Below, piece after piece: positions 2,279 through 18,123 of a DNA stretch of 32,873 nt. The notes beneath the pieces are model-generated. The model saw only the letters and a program-made list of their open reading frames with translations, ran no database searches and was not told the DNA's origin. The stretch comes from Verrucomicrobiota bacterium (GTDB taxonomy: Bacteria; Verrucomicrobiota; Verrucomicrobiia; Verrucomicrobiales; DEV007): NCBI GenBank assembly GCA_002862135.1, contig PKCI01000066.1, positions 1-32,873 of the forward strand. The letters run 5' to 3'. Position 1 is the stretch's first letter. Each line of letters opens with the position of its first letter. Position numbers and translations under genes: made by a program.

Positions 2279-3934
2279 ATGATGGGGATGTTGAACAGAA
2301 TTATAGTTGTGGTTGCGGTAATCTTACTCGCTGGAGGCGTTGGCCGGGCAGAGTTGGCGACTATGCACCTGAGGGATGGGCGCAGCCTGACGGTGGAATT
2401 AATGCAAGTCGACCGTGGTCAAATTCAGTGGAAGGTTTCGGCGTCGGTCACCCAGGTGCAGCAAACCTTGAGGAGCCAGATCGATTACGTGGATTTTACT
2501 CCAACCAATGAGTGGGAGGCCGCTGAGGCGGCATTTCAGTCCGGCAAACTGAACGAAGCTATTAATCTCTACACTACCGTTCTAAATGCCCCGGCGTCGC
2601 AATTTTACCCGATGCCGGGAAATTTTGCTTCTCTAGCGAAAGTCAGGTTGCTGGATTGCCATCGAATCAGGATGGATATGAAAGCCATTGCCGCACAGGC
2701 CGCGATTGTTCGCGACGAGTTTGCTGATCTGCCGCCTTCTCACCGCAAGCTGGACCCTGAGGTGACGGCGTGGGTCGCGATTTCAAGGCAGAATTGGCAG
2801 GCCGCTATTGATGCGGTTACGGACGTCAAGATACCGACTCCGGAGACCTATCTGGTCCGCGGTATGGCCTATGAAGGCATTGGTGCTCTCGAAGAGGCAA
2901 TTCGTCAGTATGCCGGAGCCTACGTCCTGAATTTCGGAGGTCCCACTGAGTTGACGAGGACTTCCTTGCGTCGTTCCGCGGAGATGCTGGCCAAACTGAA
3001 GAATCAGGATCGCCAGAATGAGCTGCAGGGCCTGGTTAAAATCTACCAGGACCTCTTTGGAAAGGGGAACTTGTGGGAAGGGGCACCGGAGTGGCTGGTG
3101 AAGTTGGCTGCCGGGGAGTTGGTCGTGATGAGTGAACTCACCGAGGGGCTCGATGCGCCGGAGAAACCGGACGGTGAAAGCGGGCCCCTTGGGCAAAAAT
3201 CAGCAGAACTGGCGTCCTTACCACCTCTGGCTGACCGCGAGTGGATCCTGACGGATGAACTTCCACATAGGGCATATGTGGAAGGGCCCGGCGAGGCAGA
3301 CGTCTCGAGAACCGTTGAAGGAGGAGCTTCTGAATCAGGGAAGGGATATGCTTTCGATGGCTCAGGCGGAAAGGTGATGGTCTCAGGCGTCGCCGCCAGT
3401 CAGCCTTTCATGAGAATCAGGGGTGATCTTACTCCGGAGACTACTGATGGGATCATTGCAGAAATGAAGGGGGGCGCTGGCGGTTTCGGGGTCTACCTCA
3501 AGAAGGGTGAAATCATGTTTGCCTGGGCACCCAACGGGGCCAAAGTCGAGGCCTTTACCCTTGGCAAGATGGAAGAGGGAAGCCGTGGTCATTTTGTGAT
3601 CACTATTGGATCGGATCGCAAGGTGAGGGTCAGCGGTTTGGGCTTGGAACAGCAGGAAGTGTTGAGCCTGAAGACCAGGAAAAAAGGCTTGGAGATCCTC
3701 GACAATCAGAAGCTGTTTCTCGGTGATATGCATTCTCAGAAGCCACCTAACGAGGGTTGGCCACAGTCCACGCCTTTCAAGGGAACCATTCACCATTTCT
3801 CCGTAGTGTGCGGAAAGAATGGCGAGCAGCTGAAAGAACTTCAGCTGAAAGCATTCAGTGGGAAGAATCCCCGTTTCACGCCGCCATTGGCCGAGGAGGC
3901 CCCAAAAGAGGAGCCAAACAAAGGAAAAGAATAA
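2279..3934 (+). CDS. Exported TPR / LamG-like protein, function unknown
   Basis: The 551-residue product starts with a signal peptide (hydrophobic stretch about residues 6-22, cleavage near 'GRA-EL'). Residues about 80-260 read as TPR-like helices (for example 'FQSGKLNEAINLYTTVLNAP'). Residues about 350-525 look like a concanavalin/LamG-type beta sandwich, with alternating beta strands ending in 'FKGTIHHFSVVCG', a common closing pattern of that fold. The tail is charged (EEAPKEEPNKGKE). The start at 2279 follows the previous stop by one base, which implies translational coupling. The protein probably acts in the periplasm or at the outer membrane. I do not recognise a named family, and the LamG assignment is by pattern only. 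Confidence 0.85.
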   Translation: MMGMLNRIIVVVAVILLAGGVGRAELATMHLRDGRSLTVELMQVDRGQIQWKVSASVTQVQQTLRSQIDYVDFTPTNEWEAAEAAFQSGKLNEAINLYTTVLNAPASQFYPMPGNFASLAKVRLLDCHRIRMDMKAIAAQAAIVRDEFADLPPSHRKLDPEVTAWVAISRQNWQAAIDAVTDVKIPTPETYLVRGMAYEGIGALEEAIRQYAGAYVLNFGGPTELTRTSLRRSAEMLAKLKNQDRQNELQGLVKIYQDLFGKGNLWEGAPEWLVKLAAGELVVMSELTEGLDAPEKPDGESGPLGQKSAELASLPPLADREWILTDELPHRAYVEGPGEADVSRTVEGGASESGKGYAFDGSGGKVMVSGVAASQPFMRIRGDLTPETTDGIIAEMKGGAGGFGVYLKKGEIMFAWAPNGAKVEAFTLGKMEEGSRGHFVITIGSDRKVRVSGLGLEQQEVLSLKTRKKGLEILDNQKLFLGDMHSQKPPNEGWPQSTPFKGTIHHFSVVCGKNGEQLKELQLKAFSGKNPRFTPPLAEEAPKEEPNKGKE

Positions 3935-4082: not shown

Positions 4083-4751
4083 ATGAATCGTAGGTTTTGC
4101 CACCAGGAAATAAAGCGATCCCGGACAGTCCGGTCCGGGGGGTTTACGTTGATGGAGATGCTTACCGTATTGACGGTCATCGCCTTACTGATGGGGCTTT
4201 CAGGAGGGGTTCTTTATGTTTTGACCTCAACCGGGCTCAACACATCAACACGGAACTTTGCGGATTTCGTGAATTTCTGCCGAAGCGAAGCGATTGCCCG
4301 TCACACAGCAGTGAGAGTTGGTATTACCGTTCCCGATGGTAACCAGGCTTATCGAGAATACAGCGCCTGGGAGTGGAATCGCAAACGCCGTCAGTTTGAG
4401 CAGATGAGTGAGTGGACCGGTCTCGCGGGGGGTCTTTCCTTTACCCGGACGCTGCCGGATTACGTCCGCGGTGCCTCTTACGCAGCGGAGGATGCATCAT
4501 CCGTGCGGGGAGACTACATACTCGATCTTGCCGGGAACACGTTCACAACCAAGGGGATTGATGGTCAGCCGGTCGAGGTGAAGTTTTTCCAGTTTAATCC
4601 TTCCGGACGAGTCGAAGCGCCGGGTGCCGAGATGCGAAATCTAACCCTCGTAATCCAGCCGAGTGAGTCAACCGGAAGTGATCAGACCTTTAACTGGTCT
4701 CAAATCAATCTCGATACCCTGACAGGACGTTACCGGATTTACCGGCCATGA
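4083..4751 (+). CDS. Verru_Chthon cassette protein D-like prepilin (GspH-like)
   Basis: The 222-residue protein has a class III prepilin signal. A basic 20-residue leader ends in Gly-Gly and is followed by FTLMEM, with Glu at +5, and a roughly 20-residue hydrophobic helix. The body contains 'NFADFVNFCRSEAIARHTAVRV', which resembles the post-helix segment of GspH/FimT minor pseudopilins ('R...AR..AI.R'). Length and position fit protein D of the Verru_Chthon cassette (TIGRFAM family recalled, not searched). It should be processed by prepilin peptidase and assembled into an inner-membrane pseudopilus. Its stop overlaps the next start (ATGA), so the genes are coupled. Confidence 0.85.
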   Translation: MNRRFCHQEIKRSRTVRSGGFTLMEMLTVLTVIALLMGLSGGVLYVLTSTGLNTSTRNFADFVNFCRSEAIARHTAVRVGITVPDGNQAYREYSAWEWNRKRRQFEQMSEWTGLAGGLSFTRTLPDYVRGASYAAEDASSVRGDYILDLAGNTFTTKGIDGQPVEVKFFQFNPSGRVEAPGAEMRNLTLVIQPSESTGSDQTFNWSQINLDTLTGRYRIYRP

Positions 4752-5275
4752 ATGCTGGCAAAAGTTTCCCCCGAGTTTCTGCTTTCTCCCTCGTCGAAGT
4801 GACCTTCTCGATGGCGATTGCCGCGGTCGCACTGCTTGCTATTATTGGAATGCTCCCGCAGGCCATGGAAATGAGCCGGGACAGCGCTGATCGCACCGCC
4901 ATAGGTACTATCATGGAGGACGCGCACGACCGCATGGAGGGGCTGCCGCTTGAGGCAGGCGTTCCGTCCGTCAGCCCCCTTTTCTATGATCAGCGTGGGC
5001 GCTATATAGAAGATGTCGAACAGGTGGAAGACCCCCTGTTGGATCGCGCTTTCTTTCGCCTCGAACTCAATATTAGCGAAATCGAAGGGGCAAATGCTCC
5101 TGAGCATATTTCGGATCTCAAGGCTGCGGAGATGAAAATATTCTGGCCGCTTCGTGACGATGGTTCTTCTATTGATGCGGAGCCGAAGGTCCGCATTTCC
5201 TACTACATCAACGCGCTTACAGGACCGGATTGGCAGCTAATTGAACCGGGTTTCGCGCCCAAAATTGAGTTTTAA
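4748..5275 (+). CDS. Verru_Chthon cassette protein B-like prepilin (GspI-like)
   Basis: The 175-residue protein has a 12-residue leader followed by FSLVEV (Glu at +5) and a hydrophobic helix to about residue 35. The residue before the cleavage site is Ala instead of the usual Gly, which prepilin peptidases tolerate in some minor pseudopilins. The sequence after the helix is acidic and has no disulfide pair. Position in the operon and the 'VEV' motif match GspI. The ATG overlaps the previous stop by four bases, and the stop overlaps the next start as TAATG. It is most likely protein B of the Verru_Chthon cassette. Confidence 0.85.
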   Translation: MNAGKSFPRVSAFSLVEVTFSMAIAAVALLAIIGMLPQAMEMSRDSADRTAIGTIMEDAHDRMEGLPLEAGVPSVSPLFYDQRGRYIEDVEQVEDPLLDRAFFRLELNISEIEGANAPEHISDLKAAEMKIFWPLRDDGSSIDAEPKVRISYYINALTGPDWQLIEPGFAPKIEF

Positions 5276-6345
5276 TGATCGTCCGGTCTCACAGAGTTGA
5301 CTGCAAAAATCGCGCGGGAATGGTCTTGCCGAAATCGAGGCGGACGAACGCCGGCTTGTCGCTGGTCGAATTGATGGTGGCCTTTGTTGTCTTTGCAGGA
5401 TTGATGGTGATTCTGGTTGGCGCTGTTGAGCCGGTTTCAAAAACCTGGGTCGATTCAGAGCGAAAGGTTCTTACCTATCAACGGGCCAGGGGAGCACTAG
5501 AACTCCTGACTCGTGAATTAACTCCTGCGGTGGTGGATACCCGAATGCAGTTTGCTGTCGTTCCCGGAAAAATGCTGGAAGAAGTGGGCGCCCCTTCAGT
5601 GGTTGAGGATTCTCCGGTGATTCTCTGGATGGCTCCGCTAGGGCGATATGGAGATCTCAGGTGTGTGGGCTATTACCTGTTCGGTGACGAAGACCGCCAG
5701 TTATTTCGTCTCAAGCGGATCTTCGTGAAACCCTTTGTGGATGACCGGAAGGAGAATCCGTATTTCCCGGCCGTAGGAAATTCGGAGAATATCGAGAATC
5801 TTAAGGAGGAGAGTTTGTATCTGAGGACGTCTCCGGTGGAGCCAAACTGGTTCCTCGATCAGTGGGACGCTGAGGCGTTTGATGAAGAAGACGCCTACAA
5901 TCAGGACGCCATCGTATCGACTGCAGCTGACGGTATCCTTGCGTTTTGGGTTCAATGTTATGATATTCTCGGGAATCCGGTTCCTTGGCTTTCGAATGTG
6001 GACAATCATCCGAAAAGTGAAATGATCTACAACTCGGCGGCCTATTTTCATCAAGCCAACGTTGAACCGTTCGAGGATGGCTCCACGACCGTGTTTCTCA
6101 AGGAAACGAGATACACAATGAAAGCCAATCGATTGCCTGCAGAAATTGAAATCACGATTGTGACTCTCGATGATGATGTGTCGATACAGGGATATGACAT
6201 TCCGCCAATGGAGACCGTTCTGACCTCGGGCGGAGCACTCGATTTGAAGGCATCGGTTGAGAGTTTTCAGGATGCGCTGAAGGAAAATGGAATTCTTCGA
6301 TCGAGGACATTCTCGACCCGAGTCAAACTGCTGGGAGGATCATAG
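5275..6345 (+). CDS. Verru_Chthon cassette protein C-like prepilin (GspJ-like)
   Basis: The 356-residue protein has a prepilin motif at residues 27-32 (Gly, then LSLVE) followed by a hydrophobic helix to about residue 48. An internal Met at residue 16 is an alternative start that would give a more typical 12-residue leader. After the helix, 'RARGALELLTRELTPAVVDTR' resembles the conserved start of the GspJ globular domain. The rest is beta-rich and acidic. It is longer than usual GspJ (about 200 residues) but agrees with cassette protein C as I recall that family. The start is coupled to the previous gene by TAATG. Confidence 0.85.
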   Translation: MIVRSHRVDCKNRAGMVLPKSRRTNAGLSLVELMVAFVVFAGLMVILVGAVEPVSKTWVDSERKVLTYQRARGALELLTRELTPAVVDTRMQFAVVPGKMLEEVGAPSVVEDSPVILWMAPLGRYGDLRCVGYYLFGDEDRQLFRLKRIFVKPFVDDRKENPYFPAVGNSENIENLKEESLYLRTSPVEPNWFLDQWDAEAFDEEDAYNQDAIVSTAADGILAFWVQCYDILGNPVPWLSNVDNHPKSEMIYNSAAYFHQANVEPFEDGSTTVFLKETRYTMKANRLPAEIEITIVTLDDDVSIQGYDIPPMETVLTSGGALDLKASVESFQDALKENGILRSRTFSTRVKLLGGS

Positions 6346-6347
6346 GT

Positions 6348-9300
6348 GTGAAATTTAGACATCGAAAGGCGACTGTGCGAAACCGCCGGAAGGGGGCTGC
6401 ATTAATCCTGACATTAATTTTTGTCGCCCTGTTGACGGCGATGGTGATTGCTTTCTTTGCGACGATGCGTGTTGAACAACGCGCCTCCCATGCTTATGCG
6501 AACACGCAGCGAGCCAAGATGGTGTCGCAGGGCGCAGTCAGTCACGGTATCGAATTATTGAGAGCTAACATTCCGGACCCTGCCTTGATCAGCGAAAGTG
6601 CGGAAGTTGCCCCCGGCGAAGTCTGGATCACCAATCCGGGAAGACTCATGGTGGTCGGTGAGAACGGAGACGAAAAGATCGTACCTCTGCACACTGGTGC
6701 TGCGGATCGTTCCCCCCATGAGACCGGTGATCCGGATGTATATTCCGTTGATTTGAATGAGCCACTTCCGGGGCGAACCGATCCTCCCATCGCCACGGCT
6801 GTCAGCAGTGACGGTCGACCAGACCTGAAAGGGGATGCACCGCCGATGCGGGTGAAGTGGGTTCCGGTTCTCGAGCAACCCGACAAGACAGCAGCCGAGG
6901 ACAACCAGATCTCAGGTCGCTATGCGTTTTGGATGGATGATGAGAGTTCCAAGATCAACTTCAACGTAGCTCTCGGCAAGCCGTCGAGGGACGATGTTGA
7001 TCCGCAGGGGTTCTGGGAGCAGTATGACATGGGTATGATGACACCGCTGTTCACTTCGGGAGCAGGCGATGTTGAGTTCAACGAGAATAGTAAAGACCGT
7101 GAATGGGCTCTCGGGCGACCGAGGTCAGTCAACCTCGACGTCCTCTTCGATGACCCCAGCGTCCTTGATGTCGACGCGCTTCTGGCCCATGCCTGGTTAC
7201 GAGGGTTTGCTCGCTATCCCGAGTCGATTCTTCAATTCGTCGATCTGCCCGATAATCAGAAGCGGGAATGGTTTACCGGGCAGCGCTACAACCTGACTTT
7301 TTACAGCCGTAGTCCTGAATTTAATGCGTTTGGGAAACCGAGACTCTTCACCACAAATATACCGCTGTCTCTCGAAGCAGGCCCCATGTATCAAATGCCG
7401 TTCGTTTACAACGGCCCTGAAGTGCCCGAGCCCGATTTTGACATCAGCGGCGTGCTGCACTTGAACGCGCTGATGGGAAGCATGGGCTTCACCTATGGCG
7501 TCAAGAATGAAGATGGTCGTAAAGAGCTTGCCGGAAATGTGGTGAATCGTGCCCAGTTTGAAATGCTGAAGCGATATATGTCGCGCAAGTGGCCTGGGTA
7601 TCGCGCCAGTTTTGTCGACAAATACGGGGAGCGGGAGTGCTACCAGATGGCTCTTTCGATGCTCTTGATGGCTCGCATGGCTACGACAACCATGTCGAAT
7701 GCTAACCGACCTAATGGTTCCAGTTTCAGTCGAGATTATGCCTGGAGAACTTCATCTACCATTTACTCTCCTCCCAACGGGGTGAGGACCTGGTGGCGTC
7801 CTGAGCGGCACTATTGGCCGATTAAGCTAAACAATGATTCAAACGTCAGTGAAGAGGAGGACAGCACCGAGAATGACGACATTGTCCCGATGCTACCCCA
7901 GCACCCCGGTCCTTTCATTACCGAGGTGTTGATGACATTCGATGTAGTGAATGACAGCAACTCAGGAAAGAAGAAAGTTCGCTTTCGCTACAAAGTCGAA
8001 TACTACATGCCGGACCTTGGGCCCGAAGTGTTCTTGAAATACTTTCCGGCAAAAGTGGATTATCTCCGTATTGAACCGACGGCAGCAAGACCTGAGGGAA
8101 TGCCTCAAGTCTATGAGTTGGGGCCGCCGAATCCGGATGCAATGACGCGTCCGAGAAGACGTAATGATCAGGATTGGAACTTCAATTTTAGGCGCATGCG
8201 GCGTGATGCCAATGGCGAGCCAATCTTGAATCCTAAAACCGGGAAGCCAAGATATGCGCTCGATAAACTCAGTCTGGGTTCATTGCGGATCAGTCCTAAC
8301 AGGAACATCAGATTGGTGAGCCGAAATTCAACTATTCACGGTGAGGGTAAAAACAGGGGTGCTGAGAGGAAAATTGTAACAAGTCCGTGGCGTTATCTAG
8401 GAAAGTTTGGCGATTTTCTACCGCATACGAGAGACCGATTTGAGAACGAAACGGGAGGAAACCATGCTGAAGACGAGGCGCTTTTGATCGATTCTGAAAC
8501 CGGGGTATTGGAGTTCGATGTGAAGTGGAGACTTGGAATGGGAATTCTGAACGATTCGAAACGAACCGTTCAGATGATTCCGCTTGGGGAAACTAACGAA
8601 CCAGAGCATGTGCTTGAGGCCCAGTTTAAACTTGATACTCGTTTTTCTAGCGGTCCGCAGACGGTCTCTTGGCAGATATCCGATCCGAGGCTTAGCTGGT
8701 ATAAAGACGCCTGGGTTCGGGATGACGAAGAGGAAGGAACGCCGGGCTATCCCAACGAAGTTGGCAGCAATACGCTTGAACCCGACGATGATTCTACTGA
8801 GAAGAGCAAGCTGCGATATTTTCAGCGTGGCCCCGGTCGGGTGAAGGCATTGGAAGATGGTTCAGACAGAGAATTCAATTTGAATCGTCCAGACGAGTAC
8901 AATTCCCGAAGCCGGATCACTTCGAAAGGCTACTGGTCAATGCTGCACACCGGCATCCAGGGGAACCCCGATGCTGGGGAAGAGCCCACTCCCTGGCGCA
9001 CGCTCGACCTTGGGGGAGGTGAATCGAATGAGGACGGGCCACCCGATTACCTGTTGCTCGACCTGTTGGGGGCCACTTATCCGATGCAACATGATCAGTG
9101 GAGAATTAACTCAACCCTTCCCGACGAGTTTTCCACGGTGTCATTTATGAACAGCACGGCCGGGCAGGTAAACCTCAACTCCAAGGTTTATCCTGATAAC
9201 AGCCCTTACTTTACCCCTCCCGAGCGTAAGCGGCCTTTGGAGGCTGTATTCAAACACCTAAGGACGAACAAAGAGGTGAATCAGTTTGTGAGTGCCATCA

Positions 9301-9929
9301 CAGATCATCAGGAGAACGATCCTTTCCTTTACGTAGGAGAATTGGCAGAGGTTCCCGGATATCTCAGGAATGACTCGGACGCGACGCAGTTCCAAAATGA
9401 GGAGTTATTGCGGAATATGATGGGCAGTTTGACTACGAACTCGAACACGTTTGGTTTGTGGGGCGCTGCTCAGGTCGTGCAGAAGATTCCCGGGCATAAC
9501 GATTGGGGGGAATTTGAAGACGGCGACAGGGTCCTCGCAGAAAAGCGTTTCCATGCCATCATTGAACGATATATCTGGCCGGGGAATGACGGCGTACCCG
9601 GGAACGCTCACGTTAATACTTCGGGCGAGTGGGATCGGATCGCGCAACAGCGGGCTGAGATTCCCTTTGATGGCAATTTAACGGATACCTTGTTTGGTCT
9701 TCCCGGATCGCCTCCTTTGTTCAAGGCGGGTGATTCAAGACGCCTCCGATTGGATCAAGGGGGGAGCTATCCTGTTTTTGACGGGCCCCAGAAGGTGGAA
9801 ATGGACCGGTTTGTCACCCGAGCCCTGGGAAAGGTCACATGGCATCAAAGTTCTCTTGAAGATGCTTACAATCCGCCGCAGCCGGTGATTAAATACCGCG
9901 TCGTTTACTTTCGATACCTGGACGAATGA
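6348..9929 (+). CDS. Verru_Chthon cassette protein A-like, giant GspK-like protein
   Basis: The 1193-residue protein starts with GTG two bases after the previous stop, preceded by a good ribosome binding site (GGGAGG, 6333-6338). The N terminus is basic, then Gly16 and the hydrophobic run 'AALILTLIFVALLTAMVIAF'. There is no Glu at +5, as in GspK, the tip pseudopilin of type II systems. 'RASHAYANTQRAKMVSQGAV' matches the Ala-rich post-helix segment of GspK. The large remainder is rich in Asp, Pro and Asn and has no recognised catalytic motif. Usual GspK is about 300-350 residues, so this is three to four times longer. It fits cassette protein A. Confidence 0.85.
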   Translation: MKFRHRKATVRNRRKGAALILTLIFVALLTAMVIAFFATMRVEQRASHAYANTQRAKMVSQGAVSHGIELLRANIPDPALISESAEVAPGEVWITNPGRLMVVGENGDEKIVPLHTGAADRSPHETGDPDVYSVDLNEPLPGRTDPPIATAVSSDGRPDLKGDAPPMRVKWVPVLEQPDKTAAEDNQISGRYAFWMDDESSKINFNVALGKPSRDDVDPQGFWEQYDMGMMTPLFTSGAGDVEFNENSKDREWALGRPRSVNLDVLFDDPSVLDVDALLAHAWLRGFARYPESILQFVDLPDNQKREWFTGQRYNLTFYSRSPEFNAFGKPRLFTTNIPLSLEAGPMYQMPFVYNGPEVPEPDFDISGVLHLNALMGSMGFTYGVKNEDGRKELAGNVVNRAQFEMLKRYMSRKWPGYRASFVDKYGERECYQMALSMLLMARMATTTMSNANRPNGSSFSRDYAWRTSSTIYSPPNGVRTWWRPERHYWPIKLNNDSNVSEEEDSTENDDIVPMLPQHPGPFITEVLMTFDVVNDSNSGKKKVRFRYKVEYYMPDLGPEVFLKYFPAKVDYLRIEPTAARPEGMPQVYELGPPNPDAMTRPRRRNDQDWNFNFRRMRRDANGEPILNPKTGKPRYALDKLSLGSLRISPNRNIRLVSRNSTIHGEGKNRGAERKIVTSPWRYLGKFGDFLPHTRDRFENETGGNHAEDEALLIDSETGVLEFDVKWRLGMGILNDSKRTVQMIPLGETNEPEHVLEAQFKLDTRFSSGPQTVSWQISDPRLSWYKDAWVRDDEEEGTPGYPNEVGSNTLEPDDDSTEKSKLRYFQRGPGRVKALEDGSDREFNLNRPDEYNSRSRITSKGYWSMLHTGIQGNPDAGEEPTPWRTLDLGGGESNEDGPPDYLLLDLLGATYPMQHDQWRINSTLPDEFSTVSFMNSTAGQVNLNSKVYPDNSPYFTPPERKRPLEAVFKHLRTNKEVNQFVSAITDHQENDPFLYVGELAEVPGYLRNDSDATQFQNEELLRNMMGSLTTNSNTFGLWGAAQVVQKIPGHNDWGEFEDGDRVLAEKRFHAIIERYIWPGNDGVPGNAHVNTSGEWDRIAQQRAEIPFDGNLTDTLFGLPGSPPLFKAGDSRRLRLDQGGSYPVFDGPQKVEMDRFVTRALGKVTWHQSSLEDAYNPPQPVIKYRVVYFRYLDE

Positions 9930-10681
9930 GAGAATTTTTTTGGCTTTTTTGCCTCGCTAAGAGTTTTGCTATTTCGACCATTTCCGCTCAAGACGAGAAC
10001 GCTGAGGAGGGAATGAAGCCGGTGGCACCTCAGGTGTTGTGGGAAGCTTTGCCGGGAAACCTCAACGAATGGGTGATATTGAAGTCGACTGGTGAAATGG
10101 GACTGGGGTCATGGCTGGAGAGCAAGGCCGTTCGCGAGTATAAGCGAAAAGATTTACCTTTGCTCGAAGGGCAGCCGAAGCCGTTGCCGGCACCCCAGAT
10201 GTGGACTCGAATTCTTGTGACCGATACCGGAAAGCACCCGGAGCCGCTAGGCCAGTTTCGTGATTTCTCAACGGAAACGCCCTCGGGAGATGACCGAATC
10301 GAAAAGCTCAGGATCCAGTCCTGGCCGACCATTACAAAAACCTACGAGGACGGACTGATTGTGGCCAACATGATGGTGGCAGAGCGTTTTGTGGTCGAGT
10401 TTGTCCTAAAGGAACAACCCAAGCGAAACCTTCGTTCCTGGGCTCGCCAGATGGACTTCTCTGTTCTGACTGGAATAAGAGATTCTGATGTGATCTCTCT
10501 TCCTCCTGAGGTCTTAATGGTGAAACTCGATCAACTGAAGCCAAAGAGGAACAAGGGTTACCTGATGGGGACAACCTCAGAAGCAGAACTCGAAGCCGAA
10601 CTGGCGGCGGAAGAGGAGGAGTTGCGCGAAGTAATGGGCTACGTGCCCGAGCTCGAGGACGAGGAAGGTGGCCTCGAATAG
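9926..10681 (+). CDS. Small exported protein of the pseudopilin operon, unknown
   Basis: The 251-residue product begins inside the stop of the preceding gene (ATGA overlap). It has a plausible signal peptide (about residues 3-21, ending 'ISA-QDE'). The middle is mixed alpha/beta with no motif I recognise. The last 35 residues are very acidic (AELEAELAAEEEELREV and onward). The tight coupling suggests it belongs to the same complex, for example as a periplasmic partner of the pseudopilus. That role is inference from position only. Confidence 0.8.
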   Translation: MREFFWLFCLAKSFAISTISAQDENAEEGMKPVAPQVLWEALPGNLNEWVILKSTGEMGLGSWLESKAVREYKRKDLPLLEGQPKPLPAPQMWTRILVTDTGKHPEPLGQFRDFSTETPSGDDRIEKLRIQSWPTITKTYEDGLIVANMMVAERFVVEFVLKEQPKRNLRSWARQMDFSVLTGIRDSDVISLPPEVLMVKLDQLKPKRNKGYLMGTTSEAELEAELAAEEEELREVMGYVPELEDEEGGLE

Positions 10682-11495: not shown

Positions 11496-12335
11496 TCAGA
11501 CTCCGAAGCCGAGCTCTTTTTTCAGTTCGGCTGCCGACACACCGGATCCTTTGAGACGCTTCAAGGTGATGGATTTGTCCCGCTTAGCGAGTCGGCGGCC
11601 TTTATCATCGGTAAGGAGTTTATGGTGGTGGTAGACCGGGGCGGGAAGATCGAGGAGCTGTTGCAAGACGCGGTGGAGGTGGGTCGATTCAAAAAGATCG
11701 ACGCCCCTCACGATGTCGGTAACTCCTTGGAGGCCGTCGTCGACGACTACGGCCAGGTGATAACTCGTGCCGATGTCTTTGCGGACAATGACAGCGTCGC
11801 CGAACTCCTCGGGCCGGGCGATCTGTTCTCCATGGATGGAATCCTGCCAGGTGAGTCGACTCCCGATAATTTCGAGTGCCTTGGATAGATCGAGGCGAAG
11901 GGCATAAGGTTTACCGGAGGCGATGCGTGCCCGTCTTTCATCTTCAGACAGTCTTCGGCAAGTGCCGGGGTAAAGGGGGCCGTCACCGCCGTGGGGAGCA
12001 TGACCAGCCGCTTCGATTTCCCGCTGGATGTCTTTGCGAGTGCAGAAGCAGGGGTAGAGGAGACCTTGATCCTGCAGCGACTTTGTCGCTGCAGTGTAAT
12101 CAGCCAAATGTTCACTCTGGATTCTAACTGGCTTATCCCATTCGATGCCAAGCCACGCCAAGTCCTCGAGGATTTGGGCAGTGTCCCCTCGACTGCAGCG
12201 GTTGAAGTCGATGTCTTCGATGCGTAACAGGAATTTCCCGTTTTCGTTCAGCGCCTTCTCGTAGGCTGTCAGGGCGGACCACGCGTGTCCCTTGTGCAGG
12301 TGTCCGGTTGGGCTTGGCGCAAAGCGGGTAATCAT
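11496..12335 (-). CDS. gluQ: Glutamyl-Q tRNA(Asp) synthetase
   Basis: The 279-residue protein is a shortened glutamyl-tRNA synthetase catalytic core without the anticodon-binding domain. The family transfers activated glutamate to queuosine at position 34 of tRNA-Asp. The N-terminal signature is 'APSPTGHLHKGHAWSA' (HIGH motif, residues 6-21). Zinc ligands are visible as C96, C98, Y122 and C126, the arrangement of GluQ-RS. 'RRLAKRDKSITL' near the C terminus takes the place of KMSKS. Length is normal for the family (about 280-310). No Shine-Dalgarno sequence precedes the ATG. It is divergent from the peptidase gene across an 84-base gap. Confidence 0.93.
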   Translation of the reverse strand: MITRFAPSPTGHLHKGHAWSALTAYEKALNENGKFLLRIEDIDFNRCSRGDTAQILEDLAWLGIEWDKPVRIQSEHLADYTAATKSLQDQGLLYPCFCTRKDIQREIEAAGHAPHGGDGPLYPGTCRRLSEDERRARIASGKPYALRLDLSKALEIIGSRLTWQDSIHGEQIARPEEFGDAVIVRKDIGTSYHLAVVVDDGLQGVTDIVRGVDLFESTHLHRVLQQLLDLPAPVYHHHKLLTDDKGRRLAKRDKSITLKRLKGSGVSAAELKKELGFGV

Positions 12336-12419: not shown

Positions 12420-15400
12420 TTGAATTCAATGTTTGCTCTTATGATCTCCTCCCACTGTGTATTTGCGTTCAATAGGGTTCGGTTTGCTGTGCAACCCTGT
12501 TGTATTCTCGTGATGGCCGCTATGGTAATTTATTCACCTCTCGTCGGCGAGGATGGTAGCGCTGAAAATGAGGAAGTGCTTCTGTCAGGCACACGGCAAC
12601 TGACCTTTGAGGGACGCCGCGCAGGTGAAGGTTATTTCTCTTCGGATGGCTCCAAGATGGTTTTCCAGAGCGAACGCGAAGAGGGGAATCCATTTTACCA
12701 GATTTACCTGATGGACTTGGAGTTGGGCGACATCGAAAGAGTTTCGCCGGGCATGGGGAAGACCACCTGTGCCTGGATTCACCCTGACGGCAAGCGGGTC
12801 CTTTTCGCATCGACTCATGAGGACGCACAGTCCGAAGCGCTTCAAAGGGCTGAGTTTGAAGAAAGGGAATCCGGAAAGGCTCGCAAGTATTCGTGGGACT
12901 ACGACGAGCATTATGAACTTTACGCTTTCGATTCCGAGTCAGGAGAATACACCAACCTGACAAATACCAAAGGATACGATGCGGAAGGGGCCTATTCGCC
13001 GGATGGATCCATGATTGTCTTTGCCTCAAACCGACAAGCTTATGACGGCTCCATGAGTGAAGAGGATCAGAAATACTTCAAGCTCGACAAGAAGTTTGCG
13101 ATGGAGATCTACACGGCGGGTGCCGATGGATCCAATGTCAAGCGACTGACCGAGGTCGACGGATACGACGGAGGACCTTTTTTCAGCGCTGACGGCACGA
13201 AAATTTGCTGGCGCCGCTTTGATCGCAAAGGTCTGAGCGCTGAAATCTTTTCGATGAATATCGACGGAACGGAGCAAACGCAGTTGACCCGGATTGGAGC
13301 AATGTCATGGGCGCCTTACTTTCACCCCAGCGGCGACTACCTGATCTTCGCAACCAATAAGCATGGCTTTGATAACTTTGAACTTTATCTCGTCGACGCA
13401 GCAGGAGAAAAGGATCCAGTTAGAGTCACGGAAACTGCCGGCTTCGACGGTCTGCCGGTCTTTTCTCCGGACGGAAGTCAGTTGTCATGGACGTCGAATC
13501 GTACGCCTCAGAAACAGTCTCAGATTTTTCTCGCCAATTGGAATCATGAAAAAGCGCTCGAACTTCTCGATGCTAGCCGGGAATCACTCAAGGTAACGGA
13601 GGCGGTGGCTCGCACAAAGGTCGGACAAGAGAAAACGGCACTACCCAAAACGGTGTCAGCGATCGATGAAGACGATTTGCGTCAGCACATCGAATATCTC
13701 GCGTCTGATGAACTGGAGGGTCGCTTGACCGGGACTGAGGGGGAAATCAAGGCAACCCAATATGTGGCCGATCTGTTTGAGAGTCTCGGGCTCGAACCAG
13801 GCGGCGATGACGGCACTTTCTTTCAGCCTTTTGAGTTTACGGCTGGTGTTGCTGTTGGCGAAGACAACGCCATGACATTGAAGATTGGTGACGCGGAGGT
13901 GACGCCAAAAGTCGAAGATGATTGGCGGCCGGTTTCGTTTTCCCAGACGGGCGAGATAGAAGAGCGGGCTATCGCATTCGCCGGGTATGGCCTTGAAATT
14001 CCAGACGGAAAAGGAGGTGAATCTTATTCCAGCTATTTCCATCTCGATGTGAAAGACAAATGGGTCATGGTGCTGCGTTACGTCCCGGATGATGTGTCTA
14101 AAGAGCAGCGCGATGAAATGCAGCGCCATTCACGACTGCGCTTCAAGGCAGCTCAGGCGAGAAGGAAAGAAGCCGCGGGCATTATTTTTGTTACCGGCCC
14201 TAATACGGAAGTAAATGAAGAACTCATTCCGATGCGGTTTGATGCTTCTCTGGCTGATTCAGGCATACCGTCGATCAGTATCACCACAGAGATTGCAGAA
14301 AAACTCGTCGCGCAGGCCGGAAAAGATCTGAGAGAAATACAAACGACCCTGGACACCGGCGAGATGGTCCAGGGGTTTGATATCCCTGACACGAAACTCA
14401 AGGTTGAAATCGATGTGGACCAGGAGAAAAGAACCGGAAGGAACGTTCTCGGGATTCTGTCGGCCGGCCAGACCGGGCCTCATCCGAATCCAGCGGTGGT
14501 GATTGGGGCTCACGTAGACCACCTAGGGGCAAAAGCGGGCCAGGGATCCCGCGCCACCGAAGAAGAGCAGGATCAAATTCATTATGGAGCGGACGACAAC
14601 GCTTCGGGAGTTGCTGCCTTAATAGAAATTGCTGAGTTCCTTGCTGATCAACGCGAGCGCGCCAAGCTCGAGTTGACGCGGGACGTGGTATTCGCAGCTT
14701 GGTCGGGAGAAGAATTGGGACTGCTGGGTTCTTCTCACTTTGTTCGGGATCTGGCGAAGCAGGCCTTGGGAGACGAGAGTGCGCCCTTAGGACTTTTGAT
14801 TTCCTCCTACCTGAATATGGATATGATTGGGCGCCTTGCCGACAAATTAGTTCTGCAGGGGACTGGTTCCAGTAACTACTGGGAAGGCGTCATTGAGAGA
14901 AGAAATGCTCCCATCGGTCTGCCAATCACAATTCAGCCAGATACCTACCTCCCGACGGATGCTACCAATTTTTACCTGAGAAAGATTCCGATTTTGAGCG
15001 CGTTCACGGGAGCGCACGCAGACTACCACACTCCCCGAGATACAATAGACAAGATCAATTACGAAGGAACTGCCGACATTGCTAAATTGATGGGGCTGAT
15101 TGTGAGGGAGTTGTCAATCGACAAAGCGGGACCAAAGTATGTGAAAGTCGCCCCCCCTAAGAATCGGGGTGCAAGAGGTTTTCGGGTTTATCTGGGCACG
15201 GTCCCAGATTACAGCCAGGGTGAAATCAAGGGAGTGAAATTGAGTGGGGTAGCGGATAATGGCCCAGCAGGAAAAGCGGGCGTAAAAGGTGGTGATGTGA
15301 TTGTTGGCCTGGCCGGCAAAAACATTCTCAATATCTATGACTACACCGATGCCATGGCCGGTCTCAAGGTGGGAGAGGAGACCCAAATTGTCATTCTAAG

Positions 15401-15449
15401 AGGGGAAGAGCAGCTGACCCTGAAACTCGTTCCGGGCTCCAGAGACTGA
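12420..15449 (+). CDS. Exported TolB-like propeller / M28 peptidase / PDZ protein
   Basis: Residues 1-45 form a long signal region (hydrophobic core about 27-42). Residues about 55-385 carry PD40/TolB-like propeller repeats ('YSPDGSMIVFASNR', 'FFSADGTKICWRR', 'FSPDGSQLSWTSNR'). A PA-like insert follows. An M28 zinc aminopeptidase domain then shows expected ligands: 'GAHVDHLG' (His near 698), 'GADDNASG' (Asp), 'SGEELG' (catalytic and ligand Glu), 'NMDMIG' (Asp) and 'DYHTPRDT' (His). The C-terminal 100 residues are a PDZ domain ('GPAGKAGVKGGDVIVGLAGK'). The longest frame starts at TTG 12420; ATG at 12429 is equally possible. It likely degrades peptides in the periplasm or at the cell surface. 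Confidence 0.92.
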   Translation: MNSMFALMISSHCVFAFNRVRFAVQPCCILVMAAMVIYSPLVGEDGSAENEEVLLSGTRQLTFEGRRAGEGYFSSDGSKMVFQSEREEGNPFYQIYLMDLELGDIERVSPGMGKTTCAWIHPDGKRVLFASTHEDAQSEALQRAEFEERESGKARKYSWDYDEHYELYAFDSESGEYTNLTNTKGYDAEGAYSPDGSMIVFASNRQAYDGSMSEEDQKYFKLDKKFAMEIYTAGADGSNVKRLTEVDGYDGGPFFSADGTKICWRRFDRKGLSAEIFSMNIDGTEQTQLTRIGAMSWAPYFHPSGDYLIFATNKHGFDNFELYLVDAAGEKDPVRVTETAGFDGLPVFSPDGSQLSWTSNRTPQKQSQIFLANWNHEKALELLDASRESLKVTEAVARTKVGQEKTALPKTVSAIDEDDLRQHIEYLASDELEGRLTGTEGEIKATQYVADLFESLGLEPGGDDGTFFQPFEFTAGVAVGEDNAMTLKIGDAEVTPKVEDDWRPVSFSQTGEIEERAIAFAGYGLEIPDGKGGESYSSYFHLDVKDKWVMVLRYVPDDVSKEQRDEMQRHSRLRFKAAQARRKEAAGIIFVTGPNTEVNEELIPMRFDASLADSGIPSISITTEIAEKLVAQAGKDLREIQTTLDTGEMVQGFDIPDTKLKVEIDVDQEKRTGRNVLGILSAGQTGPHPNPAVVIGAHVDHLGAKAGQGSRATEEEQDQIHYGADDNASGVAALIEIAEFLADQRERAKLELTRDVVFAAWSGEELGLLGSSHFVRDLAKQALGDESAPLGLLISSYLNMDMIGRLADKLVLQGTGSSNYWEGVIERRNAPIGLPITIQPDTYLPTDATNFYLRKIPILSAFTGAHADYHTPRDTIDKINYEGTADIAKLMGLIVRELSIDKAGPKYVKVAPPKNRGARGFRVYLGTVPDYSQGEIKGVKLSGVADNGPAGKAGVKGGDVIVGLAGKNILNIYDYTDAMAGLKVGEETQIVILRGEEQLTLKLVPGSRD

Positions 15450-15456
15450 TGGAAGC

Positions 15457-18123
15457 TTGAAAAACGCCGTAAAATCGGGGAAAAAGCGACTTTTTCTCGC
15501 TTTTCGGCGTCAAATTGGCGAGCAATTACCCGCTTGCGAACCGAGGCGGTCTGCTGCTACAGTCTTGGCATCCGGGTTTAACGACAATCGAGATTCCTCC
15601 TTTTTGGCTAATTTCCGACATAATCAACCGCTTAAAGCGCGGTTTCTGAAGGCTGGGGCGGCGTTTACGGCAACGTTTCTCATCGGACTGTTGGGGTATG
15701 TTGATATTGCCCTCTCACAAAGTGACATCGCTACGGTGGCGGCTCGCGAGGCTCAGAAAAGGCAGTCACAAGTCAAAGCCGCCCAGACACTTTACACGGC
15801 AGGTGCTTCAGCCATGTCTGATCGATCCTATGGCGAGGCCATGGACAACTTCAAGGGGGCGTTCCGAGCCATGCCGAATGTTCCGGCAGTTGAAGATCAG
15901 CGACGCATCTTCTTCAAGCAGTTCCAGACGGCTTCCCTGGCGTTTACCGATGTGTTAATCGAGGAAGCGAAGTGGGCTGAAGCCGTTCAGACCCTGGAAG
16001 GCGTCTTGGAGACGGCACAGGACGGATTCATTCCTGATTCGTTGATCGACCCGAACGTCAAGATAACGCTGGAGGAACTCCGCGTCCATGACGGGCGTTT
16101 TAATCAGGCGATGACTCCCCAGCATCTTCGCAATATCGAGGAAGTTCAGGCGAAACTCATTCTCGCAAAAGGCTACATGGAACTCGGCGACTATGACCGG
16201 GCCGATTATACCTACAACCGAGTTCTCAATATCGATCCCTCCAATGAGGCGGCGCGGCGGGGGCAGGAAGAAGTCGAGCGCTATCGCACGAATTATTACG
16301 ATGCCGCCTACAACCAAACTCGGGCCAAGGCACTCGCAGAGGTGGCAGCGGGATGGGAGACTCCCATTGTGAGAATGGATTTGGGAGATGGTATCAATAC
16401 TGGCGCAACGACCGAGATTGCCAACTCCGGTAATGTCATCATCGAGCAAAAGCTTAAGAACATTATCATACCGAGCCTGGAGTTTCGTGACGCCCGACTT
16501 GTAGATGTGATCGATTTCCTTGTCGCTAAGTCGCAGGAACTCGATGTTAACGAAGCGGATCCGGCCCGGAAAGGTGTCAGTATTGTGGTGGATCCGAGCG
16601 GATCAATTGACGGACAGGATCTTTCGCAACTACCCGTGACGGTTCGCCTGACGAGTGTTCCGATGGAGGCGGCCCTGAAATATGTGACTCAGTTGGTCGG
16701 CATGAAGTATCGCATCGATGAGTATGCGGTCTTCGTGGTTCCGAATTCTGTGGCGTTCGATGAGGGCATGATCACTCGCCGCTACCCGGTGCCTCCTGGC
16801 TTCATTTCATCAGGGAATCAGGGTGTGGGATCTGCTGATGCGATCAATGATCCGTTTGCGACACCCTCGGCGTCAGGATCAAGCGGCCTAACCCTCAAGC
16901 GAATTACCGCCGAGGAATTTCTCGAACAGTCTGGTGTGGTTTTCCCGCCCGGTGCTTCTGCCAACTACATACCGACGACGAGCACGCTCGTTGTAACCAA
17001 TAATGTGGACCAGCACGCCACAGTCGAGAACTTGATCCAGATCTCGAAAGATAGCGGCAGCAAGATGGTCAAGGTGAATGTCAAGATGGTCTCCATAGAA
17101 AACGAAAACTTGGAGGCTTCGGGGCTCGACTGGCTGCTTGGAGCAGCGAACCTCGGTAGCAGCTCGGGCACGTTTTTTAGCGGTGGGACGGATGGTTCGA
17201 CATCCACTCCGACATCGGTGGTAGATTTTCCTTTGCTTGACCCAGTAACGCAACTTCCGATTGGCCTGAATCCGGTCACCAGCGGTCTCCGCATGGCTGA
17301 CGTCTCTTCGACCCAAACGATTGAGGATGTCATAAATCGCAACAGCCCATCGTCTCCTTCCGCCAAGTATCCCGGTGTTTTCTCTGTGGCTGGAGCTTTC
17401 ACTGATCCTCAGTTTCAGATGGTCCTCCGGGCGTTGAGCCAAAGCAAAGGCTCTGATGTGATGTGTGATGTGCATGTCTTCGTGAAGCCGGGCCAGATTG
17501 CTTCCATTGAGCAGGTGCGCGAGTTTATTTATCCAACAGAGTATGATCCACCGGAGATTCCTAACCAAATTGGTGGAGGAATTGGTGACGGAGCTGTGGA
17601 GGTGTTTCCTGTGACCCCAGCAACGCCGACTGCGTTCGAGACGCGGTCGCTTGGCAAAATAATCGAGGTGGAACCCACCGTTTCATCGGACAACCTCGCC
17701 GTAAATTTGAACGTAACGGCAGATTTCAGCGACTTTATTGGTTTTATTAATTACGGCACACCAATACTGGGTGGTGGCGCAACCACCAATGGTCAGCGCG
17801 TTGTTGTGACTGAAAATGAGATCCTAATGCCGGTTTTCGATGTCGTTCGTGAAACGACGAACGTGACAGTCTGGGACGGGCAAACGATCGCCATTGGTGG
17901 ATTCCATGGCGAGAGTGTTGAAGTATTCAATGACAAAGTTCCCGTGGTCGGTGATCTTCCCGTTTTGGGTAGAGCTTTCCGGTCAAACGGTAGCGATCGC
18001 AACAAGAGAGCTCTCCTTATCTTTGTATCCGTGCGCCTCGTTGACCCGGGTGGCAATCCGATTAACGCTGCTGCGGAAGTTGAACCCGAGTTGATGACTC
18101 GACTCGACGACAGCAGTAATTGA
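15457..18123 (+). CDS. Secretin, Amuc_1098/PilQ/GspD-like outer-membrane channel
   Basis: The 888-residue frame has a signal-like helix at about residues 67-86 ('AGAAFTATFLIGLLGYVDIA'). A TPR segment follows at about 225-275. An STN/N0-like domain contains 'LEFRDARLVDVIDFLV', and an N1-like domain contains 'YIPTTSTLVVTNNVDQHATV'. The secretin core carries the classic signature 'DKVPVVGDLPVLGRAFR' near residue 830. The listed TTG start leaves about 65 residues before the signal helix, so the true start is probably downstream, for example TTG at 15604. A weak inverted repeat (15482-15504) lies within this extension. It probably forms the outer-membrane pore for the pseudopilus encoded at 4083-9929. 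Confidence 0.9.
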   Translation: MKNAVKSGKKRLFLAFRRQIGEQLPACEPRRSAATVLASGFNDNRDSSFLANFRHNQPLKARFLKAGAAFTATFLIGLLGYVDIALSQSDIATVAAREAQKRQSQVKAAQTLYTAGASAMSDRSYGEAMDNFKGAFRAMPNVPAVEDQRRIFFKQFQTASLAFTDVLIEEAKWAEAVQTLEGVLETAQDGFIPDSLIDPNVKITLEELRVHDGRFNQAMTPQHLRNIEEVQAKLILAKGYMELGDYDRADYTYNRVLNIDPSNEAARRGQEEVERYRTNYYDAAYNQTRAKALAEVAAGWETPIVRMDLGDGINTGATTEIANSGNVIIEQKLKNIIIPSLEFRDARLVDVIDFLVAKSQELDVNEADPARKGVSIVVDPSGSIDGQDLSQLPVTVRLTSVPMEAALKYVTQLVGMKYRIDEYAVFVVPNSVAFDEGMITRRYPVPPGFISSGNQGVGSADAINDPFATPSASGSSGLTLKRITAEEFLEQSGVVFPPGASANYIPTTSTLVVTNNVDQHATVENLIQISKDSGSKMVKVNVKMVSIENENLEASGLDWLLGAANLGSSSGTFFSGGTDGSTSTPTSVVDFPLLDPVTQLPIGLNPVTSGLRMADVSSTQTIEDVINRNSPSSPSAKYPGVFSVAGAFTDPQFQMVLRALSQSKGSDVMCDVHVFVKPGQIASIEQVREFIYPTEYDPPEIPNQIGGGIGDGAVEVFPVTPATPTAFETRSLGKIIEVEPTVSSDNLAVNLNVTADFSDFIGFINYGTPILGGGATTNGQRVVVTENEILMPVFDVVRETTNVTVWDGQTIAIGGFHGESVEVFNDKVPVVGDLPVLGRAFRSNGSDRNKRALLIFVSVRLVDPGGNPINAAAEVEPELMTRLDDSSN

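Follow-up and report, generated by a model that had tools for sequence, protein, structure and literature searches.

A minor pseudopilin-like gene cassette with a giant GspK-like protein in a Verrucomicrobiota bacterium

What do the genes of a Verru_Chthon cassette make, and does the cassette studied here encode the tip of a pseudopilus? The stretch of DNA analysed, called the window below, is the whole contig PKCI01000066.1 (C23; 32,873 nucleotides) of the draft genome of a Verrucomicrobiota bacterium (3.48 Mb in 239 contigs). An initial annotation described four genes at 4083–9929 as a Verru_Chthon cassette laid out like gspH-I-J-K, the minor pseudopilin genes of the type II secretion system (T2SS), with a giant K. 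According to the TIGRFAM notes, Verrucomicrobium and Chthoniobacter reportedly have several copies of the cassette, and PEP-CTERM neighbours may be noted there as well. Among the open-licence papers listed, no full-text paper on Verru_Chthon by name, no described function and no earlier statement assigning these families to GspH-I-J-K were found. The results described here give good support to the reading as a minor pseudopilus tip complex, and suggest what the tip may handle.

The cassette lies on the plus strand in the order D-B-C-A. Gene D (4083–4751) encodes a GspH-like minor pseudopilin of 222 aa with the prepilin site G^FTLME at 4140–4157, gene B (4748–5275) encodes a GspI-like minor pseudopilin of 175 aa with A^FSLVE at 4781–4798, and gene C (5275–6345) encodes a GspJ-like minor pseudopilin of 356 aa with G^LSLVE at 5353–5370. 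Gene A (6348–9929) starts with GTG and encodes a giant GspK-like cap protein of 1193 aa with G^AALIL at 6393–6410. In the sites of D, B and C, position +5 is Glu, and position −1 is Gly in D and C and Ala in B; the site of A has Leu at +5 and not Glu. The Glu at +5 in three leaders, its absence from the fourth, and the H-I-J-K order in one operon are features of the T2SS set GspH-I-J-K, the order being that of E. coli K-12. D and B overlap by ATGA, B and C are joined by TAATG, and a 2-base gap separates C from A. The prepilin motifs, the gene order and coupling, and the length of the fourth protein were all as the initial annotation had given them on the open reading frames (ORFs). The four coupled genes are present, but the unit has five genes: the end of A overlaps by ATGA with a fifth gene (9926–10681, plus strand), which encodes a protein of 251 aa with a hydrophobic N-terminal leader.

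According to the NCBIfam models, D corresponds to TIGR02596 (52.4 bits, cut-off 70), B to TIGR02598 (43.1 bits, cut-off 51.4), C to TIGR02599 (41.3 bits, cut-off 256.5) and A to TIGR02600 (168.6 bits, cut-off 332.3; E-value 1.9e-49). B also matches the PilV model TIGR02523 (E-value 8.8e-4) and the gspI model TIGR01707 (E-value 0.012). Thus, the name Verru_Chthon is appropriate in that all four families are recognised side by side, but every gene scores below the curated cut-off, and the window cassette is therefore regarded as a divergent branch. A second, canonical cassette is located on contig C42 of the same genome in the order A-B-C-D, and it exceeds the cut-offs for A (844.8 bits) and D (119.2 bits). 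The window cassette differs from the canonical type in its scores, its D-B-C-A order and its fifth gene. The D-B-C-A order is also found among the cassettes of genome G049. In 193 genomes of the phylum, with at most three candidates scored per genome, TIGR02600 matched in 109 and exceeded the cut-off in five; among the matches listed, most of those under the cut-off cover only the first ~60 positions, and they are not counted as cassettes.

The assignment of A to GspK was examined using one predicted structure of A. The GspK fold, which consists of the pilin domain and the inserted alpha-domain, was found in this model, and the fold is kept whole despite a large insertion. The initial annotation had named the N-terminal 300 residues as the place where the fold should be detectable. 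The fold is present, but it is split between both ends of the protein. Two GspK-type N-x-N motifs mark the two parts. The first motif, DDESSKINFN, is encoded at 6936–6965 (plus strand; residues 197–206), and the second motif, AGQVNLN, at 9159–9179 (plus strand; residues 938–944). In an alignment of 28 A proteins (A2; 28 of 31 possible rows, the partial sequences L101, L109 and L110 being dropped), Glu199, Asn204 and Asn206 of the first motif and Gly939, Asn942 and Asn944 of the second are invariant. The GspK counterpart of the first motif, Asn107, is present in 25 of 26 GspK proteins, and those of the second, Asn217 and Asn219, in 24 of 26 and 26 of 26. The two motifs are 738 residues apart in the window protein and 611–750 apart over the 28 rows, versus 87–126 (median 118) in the 26 GspK proteins. 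The GspK/XcpX proteins of known structure (PDB 3ci0_K, 5vtm_X and 6utu_C) have about 300 aa, in comparison with 1193 aa in A.

Profile comparisons were less clear than the fold. Using hhalign with parts of A against GspK, the first N-x-N motif was paired as expected at only 2–5% probability, and the C-terminal half was aligned with the second motif unpaired. Foldseek alone ranked GspK 15th for A, with an E-value of 1.1. No GspK or GspJ was found by a PDB sequence search with the profiles of A, B, C and D; the matches were pilin N-termini and chance hits for A, B and C, and pilins, GspG and FimU for D. As the sequence and profile matches to GspK are weak, the GspK claim for A rests on the fold. 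The GspK model NF037980 itself matched in 85 of 115 genomes, with two over the cut-off.

The insertion between the motifs corresponds to residues about 216–935 (6993–9152, plus strand; boundaries approximate). Its beta-rich part, residues 517–786 (7896–8705, plus strand), is the least conserved part of A, with a mean identity of 0.33 and 17% gaps, and the motif regions show 0.72 and 0.56 (means computed without the three closest relatives). A tip that reads ligands or cargo would be expected to look like this, with a conserved cap bearing a variable outer module. The enlarged K of the initial annotation is thus borne out, but it is not special to this locus: among 40 other A-type proteins longer than 800 aa, 37 contain both motifs by a pattern rule, with lengths of 899–1704 aa and spacings of 529–1177. 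In a separate case, L155 (7958–14182), the open frame of A extends to 2074 aa, and within it a PEP-CTERM end precedes the prepilin site; an exported protein may be fused here, or continuous in frame, with the giant K.

The smaller proteins were compared with the pseudopilins by hhalign. The GspJ and GspI sets contained 16 and 12 rows, own and E. coli sequences included, according to a motif rule on 25 GspK loci; the candidates of L120 and L122 were left out of the GspJ set, and the GspG and GspH sets had three and two rows. C is aligned with GspJ over 207 columns (E-value 7.8e-16), versus at most 65 columns with the other pseudopilins, and B is aligned with GspI over 111 columns (E-value 5.1e-12), versus at most 59. 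When the columns after the helix were shuffled, the C–GspJ alignment reached a maximum of 69 columns, with none of 60 shuffles attaining the real length and one of 60 the real score; for B–GspI, the maximum was 55 columns and none of 60 attained the length or the score. D matches the Pfam GspH model PF12019 at residues 56–192 with an E-value of 0.0029 and 18.5 bits, under the cut-off of 21, and this model matches 13 of 25 members of the D family at an E-value of 0.1 or better. The D profile also matches FimU (4ipu; E-value 0.0053) among many pilins. Against GspG, GspH, GspI and GspJ, D is aligned over 39–56 columns at the N-terminus only. The H-I-J-K assignment of the initial annotation was upheld by the GspK fold in A, by GspJ and GspI as the best and longest matches of C and B, respectively, and by the partial GspH match of D. 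Homology and the predicted fold thus support a probably GspH-like D, a GspI-like B, a GspJ-like C and a GspK-like A, whose alpha-domain would be opened by an insertion of about 700 residues.

Long matches to the A protein were found in 14 of 76 genomes (own included), and with weaker N-terminal or motif matches included, 47 genomes match in all. The 30 named loci belong to metagenome-assembled genomes (MAGs) of Verrucomicrobiales and Akkermansiaceae, to Verrucomicrobium sp. BvORR034 and BvORR106, to a Chthoniobacteraceae MAG and to others. According to the profile models, the D-B-C-A order is kept in 23 of the 30 loci (in L095 and L109, A runs off the contig), which indicates that the order is not due to chance. 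Among the other seven, D was not detected in L114, A stands alone in L096 and L097, and L087, L093, L101 and L110 are cut by contig ends. As the models of B, C, D and the fifth gene were partly built from the scanned loci, the presence of these genes is a circular result and their order is not. The alignment A8 contained 21 of 23 rows, with L092 dropped for a masked stretch and L111 absent. In BvORR034 and BvORR106, the lone window-type A genes (L096, 9956–13399; L097, 9983–13426) are immediately followed by the gene of a long protein whose leader is export-like. Two loci of the small-genome family f2, probably from Akkermansia, contain large or shorter proteins with an A-like N-terminus (L146, 4807–8835; L147, 9032–10000); these genes are divergent from the gene of a second protein, which has about 990 aa and is similar between the two loci, and no D, B or C was detected there.

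The cassette type is multiplied in two genomes of the same order. G049 and G062 contain 12 and at least 21 A matches over the cut-off, or 13 and at least 23 including divergent ones, the candidates of G062 being partly scored. Among the loci listed of G049, G062 and G143 (L154–L186, L075 and L076), the orders A-B-C-D, D-B-C-A, B-C-A-D and B-C-D-A were found. B and C are adjacent in the 11 of 13 G049 loci having both, and in L159 and L162 of G049, A was detected without B, C or D alongside.

The fifth gene accompanies A closely. Its profile was found in 12 of 76 genomes, always directly after A, and an extra weak fragment was seen in G009. Among the 14 genomes with a long A match, it is absent only in G050, where the contig ends, and in G062. 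Among the 27 named loci with a downstream side, the gene follows A in 22; in L111 and L113, the gap is 200–300 bp. A Pfam scan of the fifth protein gave no family. One model of this protein was predicted with a mean predicted local distance difference test (pLDDT) score of 84.3, and its fold matches are tentative. The protein is taken to be periplasmic because of the hydrophobic leader at its start. According to the strict gene linkage, it is probably a partner or chaperone of the giant cap in the periplasm. In L090, a second C-like ORF (12910–14163; 417 aa, 29% identical), which the C profile does not match, is located after the fifth gene.

We presume that the five genes make a pseudopilus tip complex whose giant-K head is served by an engine in trans, and the probability of this reading is estimated at roughly 0.6. 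In the crystal complex of GspI-J-K, GspK caps the tip and contains a large inserted domain that P. aeruginosa PilX does not have (excerpts of PMC7248040; the other papers are likewise cited from excerpts), and in the Xcp tip complex, XcpX is located at the top and XcpU at the bottom (PMC6211770). If the T2SS mechanism applies, a prepilin peptidase would cleave all four leaders, and the I- and J-like proteins would nucleate a short filament, with the H-like protein below and the K-like protein as the cap. The ATPase, the platform protein and the major pseudopilin, encoded elsewhere, would then push the filament towards a secretin. In the periplasm or in the secretin vestibule, the giant K may contact a cargo or ligand by its variable outer part. 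The cassette would thus be an exchangeable head which lends a new specificity to a general secretion engine. A role in adhesion or uptake is considered less likely than one in the secretion of exported proteins. The minor pseudopilus tip with an enlarged cap, as first described, is supported by homology and fold, but with corrections: the unit has five genes, the fold is split and the copy is below the cut-offs.

Some results weigh against this reading. When the helix was removed, the C–GspJ alignment shrank to 34 columns with an E-value of 4.7e-4, and the B–GspI alignment gave an E-value of only 0.032. The linkage to an engine, as in a T2SS, was not found either: neither the ATPase family PF00437 nor the platform family PF00482 matches on C23. 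No further pseudopilin is present among the 22 distinct window ORFs scanned (smaller and other ORFs lie outside the scan). These negatives agree with the initial annotation, which had noticed no major pseudopilin, ATPase or platform gene nearby. Engine genes are present on other contigs of the genome. On C7, GspF- and GspG-like genes form a row in which two prepilin-like ORFs occupy the positions of H and I, and J- and K-like genes come last; the K of this row has a normal size of 308 aa. C92 contains GspE-, GspF-, GspG- and GspD-like genes and a GspK-like gene. C2 contains genes of the type IV pilus type (two ATPases, a platform and a pilin), and further ATPases are located on C39, C55 and C16, of which two on C16 are read as PilT-like. 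The giant-K head could be run by such a resident engine encoded elsewhere in the genome.

The neighbours of the cassette include a candidate outer-membrane partner. A secretin gene of the Amuc_1098 family (15457–18123, plus strand) is located 5.5 kb downstream and had not been listed in the initial annotation; it matches NF042912 with 817.9 bits (cut-off 750) and the Secretin family PF00263. Its Akkermansia relative is described as a type IV pilus secretin and was localized to the outer membrane by immunogold (PMC4960237). The window secretin is a possible outer-membrane partner of the cassette. It is preceded by a gene for a beta-propeller/M28 peptidase/PDZ protein (12420–15449), and the pair is kept, with the secretin in the same position, in L085, L086 and L087. 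The divergent L075 cassette also has a secretin nearby, with 37% identity. The scanned ORFs of the window include no pilus alignment gene. In the interval from the cassette to the window secretin, a protein of 279 aa with a Glu/Gln-tRNA synthetase catalytic domain (PF00749) is encoded on the minus strand at 11496–12335.

Upstream of the cassette, a tetratricopeptide repeat (TPR) protein, matched by TPR models, is encoded at the start of the contig (19–2277, plus strand; 752 aa in the window), and a Mul1B-like TPR protein of 551 aa at 2279–3934 (plus strand; NF052542, 51.4 bits, cut-off 75). The former is longer in L085 (849 aa) and L086 (962 aa). Of the 30 loci, L085 and L086 were seen to have a Mul1B-like gene next to the cassette; in L087 the sequence stops short of this gene, and in several others the upstream part is small. 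The contig break lies right at the TPR gene, or about 1 kb ahead of it, in the window, L085 and L086; in the window, ExbB and ExbD could lie beyond the contig start. The locus ExbB-ExbD-TPR-Mul1B with Mul1B above the cut-off was not found in the window. On C5 of the same genome, ExbB-ExbD-TPR-Mul1B is present (L151, 8269–14898), and its Mul1B is also under the cut-off with 49.8 bits. At least three TPR and Mul1B-like pairs exist in the genome (C5, C23 and C42). About 3 kb upstream of the canonical A-B-C-D cassette, with other genes between, is a block of TPR, Mul1B-like, ExbB, ExbD, ExbD and VWA-like genes, and this block was found in all three same-genus genomes inspected (L011, 18–14708; L077; L078). 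The Mul1B-like neighbour suggested that the cassette is part of the Akkermansia Mul1 mucin system; this was considered but not adopted, as ExbB-ExbD-TPR-Mul1B occurs without a cassette in the 20 kb inspected of the Akkermansia-like G178 (L150) and of C5. The excerpts of PMC11790493 mention Mul1A once, and nothing joining Akkermansia mucin, ExbD and tetratricopeptide proteins was found in the open-licence literature.

These neighbours bear on another explanation, namely a retractable type IV pilus with the cassette proteins at its tip. Pilins like FimU-PilV-PilW-PilX would carry the giant K in place of PilY1 as an adhesin or glycan receptor, and polymers would be pulled through the Amuc_1098-type secretin together with the TPR and Mul1B-like proteins. 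The type IV pilus genes on C2, the PilT-like ATPases on C16, the secretins here and near L075, and the TPR and Mul1B-like genes upstream of both cassette types fit this explanation. So does the four-subunit logic, which is common to the type IVa minor pilins (PMC7248040), with B matching PilV; in addition, ComZ is a DNA-binding tip pilin with a large inserted domain (PMC7248040). On the other hand, the window K has 1193 aa and keeps the GspK inserted domain, which the small P. aeruginosa PilX does not have (PMC7248040), and nothing marks the gene after it, without a Pfam match, as PilY1. Among the 30 loci, the secretin and Mul1B-like genes were seen beside the cassette only in the closest relatives L085–L087, and the ExbB-ExbD-TPR-Mul1B block has no cassette within the 20 kb inspected in G178 and on C5. 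We regard a retractable pilus tip as unlikely. It is far less probable still that the prepilin leaders are membrane anchors only, that no filament is formed, and that A is a structural protein of the envelope. Such a role would be in accordance with the lack of a linked engine gene and with the lone A genes of L096, L097, L159 and L162, by which A does not always need adjacent D-B-C; it is opposed by the fixed order of the H-I-J-K set, which 23 of 30 loci share, and by the full GspK fold kept despite the insertion.

A further explanation comes from neighbouring genes for exported proteins with a PEP-CTERM sorting end, which are found at many of the A genes of G049 and G062. PEP-CTERM was first recognised in Verrucomicrobium spinosum, with 65 instances (PMC1569441). 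In G049, nine of 13 A genes are located within 600 bp of a PEP-CTERM gene; random placement on these contigs, repeated 10,000 times, gave a mean of 2.2 and never reached nine. Counted as A genes were the 13 whose match extends beyond the N-terminus, L159 and L162 included; left out were hits below 16 bits, the hit at C6:200114 (16.2 bits only together with its neighbours) and all hits on contigs that lack an A gene. According to the C-terminal motif in complete ORFs, the count for G049 is six of 13, since three genes of the former count overrun the stretch or share the frame of A, and a PEP-CTERM gene is within 600 bp in 17 of 35 loci of G049, G062 and G143 (L173 holds more than one cassette). 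The three long neighbours scanned all have beta-strand repeats (TIGR02601), together with a PEP-CTERM end that scores above its cut-off; two such neighbours directly follow a window-type A in loci without the fifth gene (L097 and L105). Each cassette may therefore be a dedicated exporter head for the adjoining giant repeat protein, the window cargo being lost, relocated or the fifth protein itself, and the slot after A, occupied by the fifth gene in 22 loci and by a long protein with an export-like leader in L096, L097 and L105, is consistent with this. But adjacency is no proof of transport, L098 and L099 have neither gene after A, and the window cassette has no PEP-CTERM neighbour. Only three PEP-CTERM matches of the genome score above the cut-off, and all of them lie on contigs other than C23 and C42, which counts against a general rule linking the cassette and PEP-CTERM. 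We consider the dedicated exporter possible, yet somewhat unlikely. A tentative and rather unlikely extension of the tip complex combines both ideas: a few ATPase/platform engines would be shared by up to about 20 H-I-J-giant-K heads per genome, each of which would read its own cargo, often the next-door giant surface protein, by the fast-evolving K insert.

The pseudopilus tip complex proposed here can be compared with related systems. Modular pilins are widespread, with an extreme case of 860 residues (PMC8179133). Thermus ComZ and S. sanguinis PilB resemble A in having a large tip-exposed module on a pilin (PMC7248040; PMC8179133); the module of A differs in being placed inside a GspK-type domain, and that of the 860-residue pilin is a repeat module (PMC8179133). 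The multiplication of pseudopilins in this phylum is in print for the Verrucomicrobiota isolate AB-alg1, which over-expresses a pseudopilin on alginate and has 67 PulG-like homologues and a T2SS (PMC13274419), but these are PulG-like proteins and not minor subunits. Compared with GspK/XcpX and its system, the window has no linked ATPase or platform gene, and has the fifth gene of no known family. The reading as a GspH-I-J-K-type tip set with an insert of about 700 residues in K, a fifth gene and no linked engine holds with the corrections given above.

The reading as GspH-I-J-K gives a testable machine for a family with at least 21 A matches over the cut-off in a single genome, G062, and indicates that the insert in a pseudopilus cap can be about twice as large as an ordinary GspK. 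To our knowledge, little is understood so far of how the T2SS recognises its cargo. With several heads per genome next to candidate cargo, this recognition would become directly testable, and an unexplained gene family of the Verrucomicrobia gains a likely structure and role.

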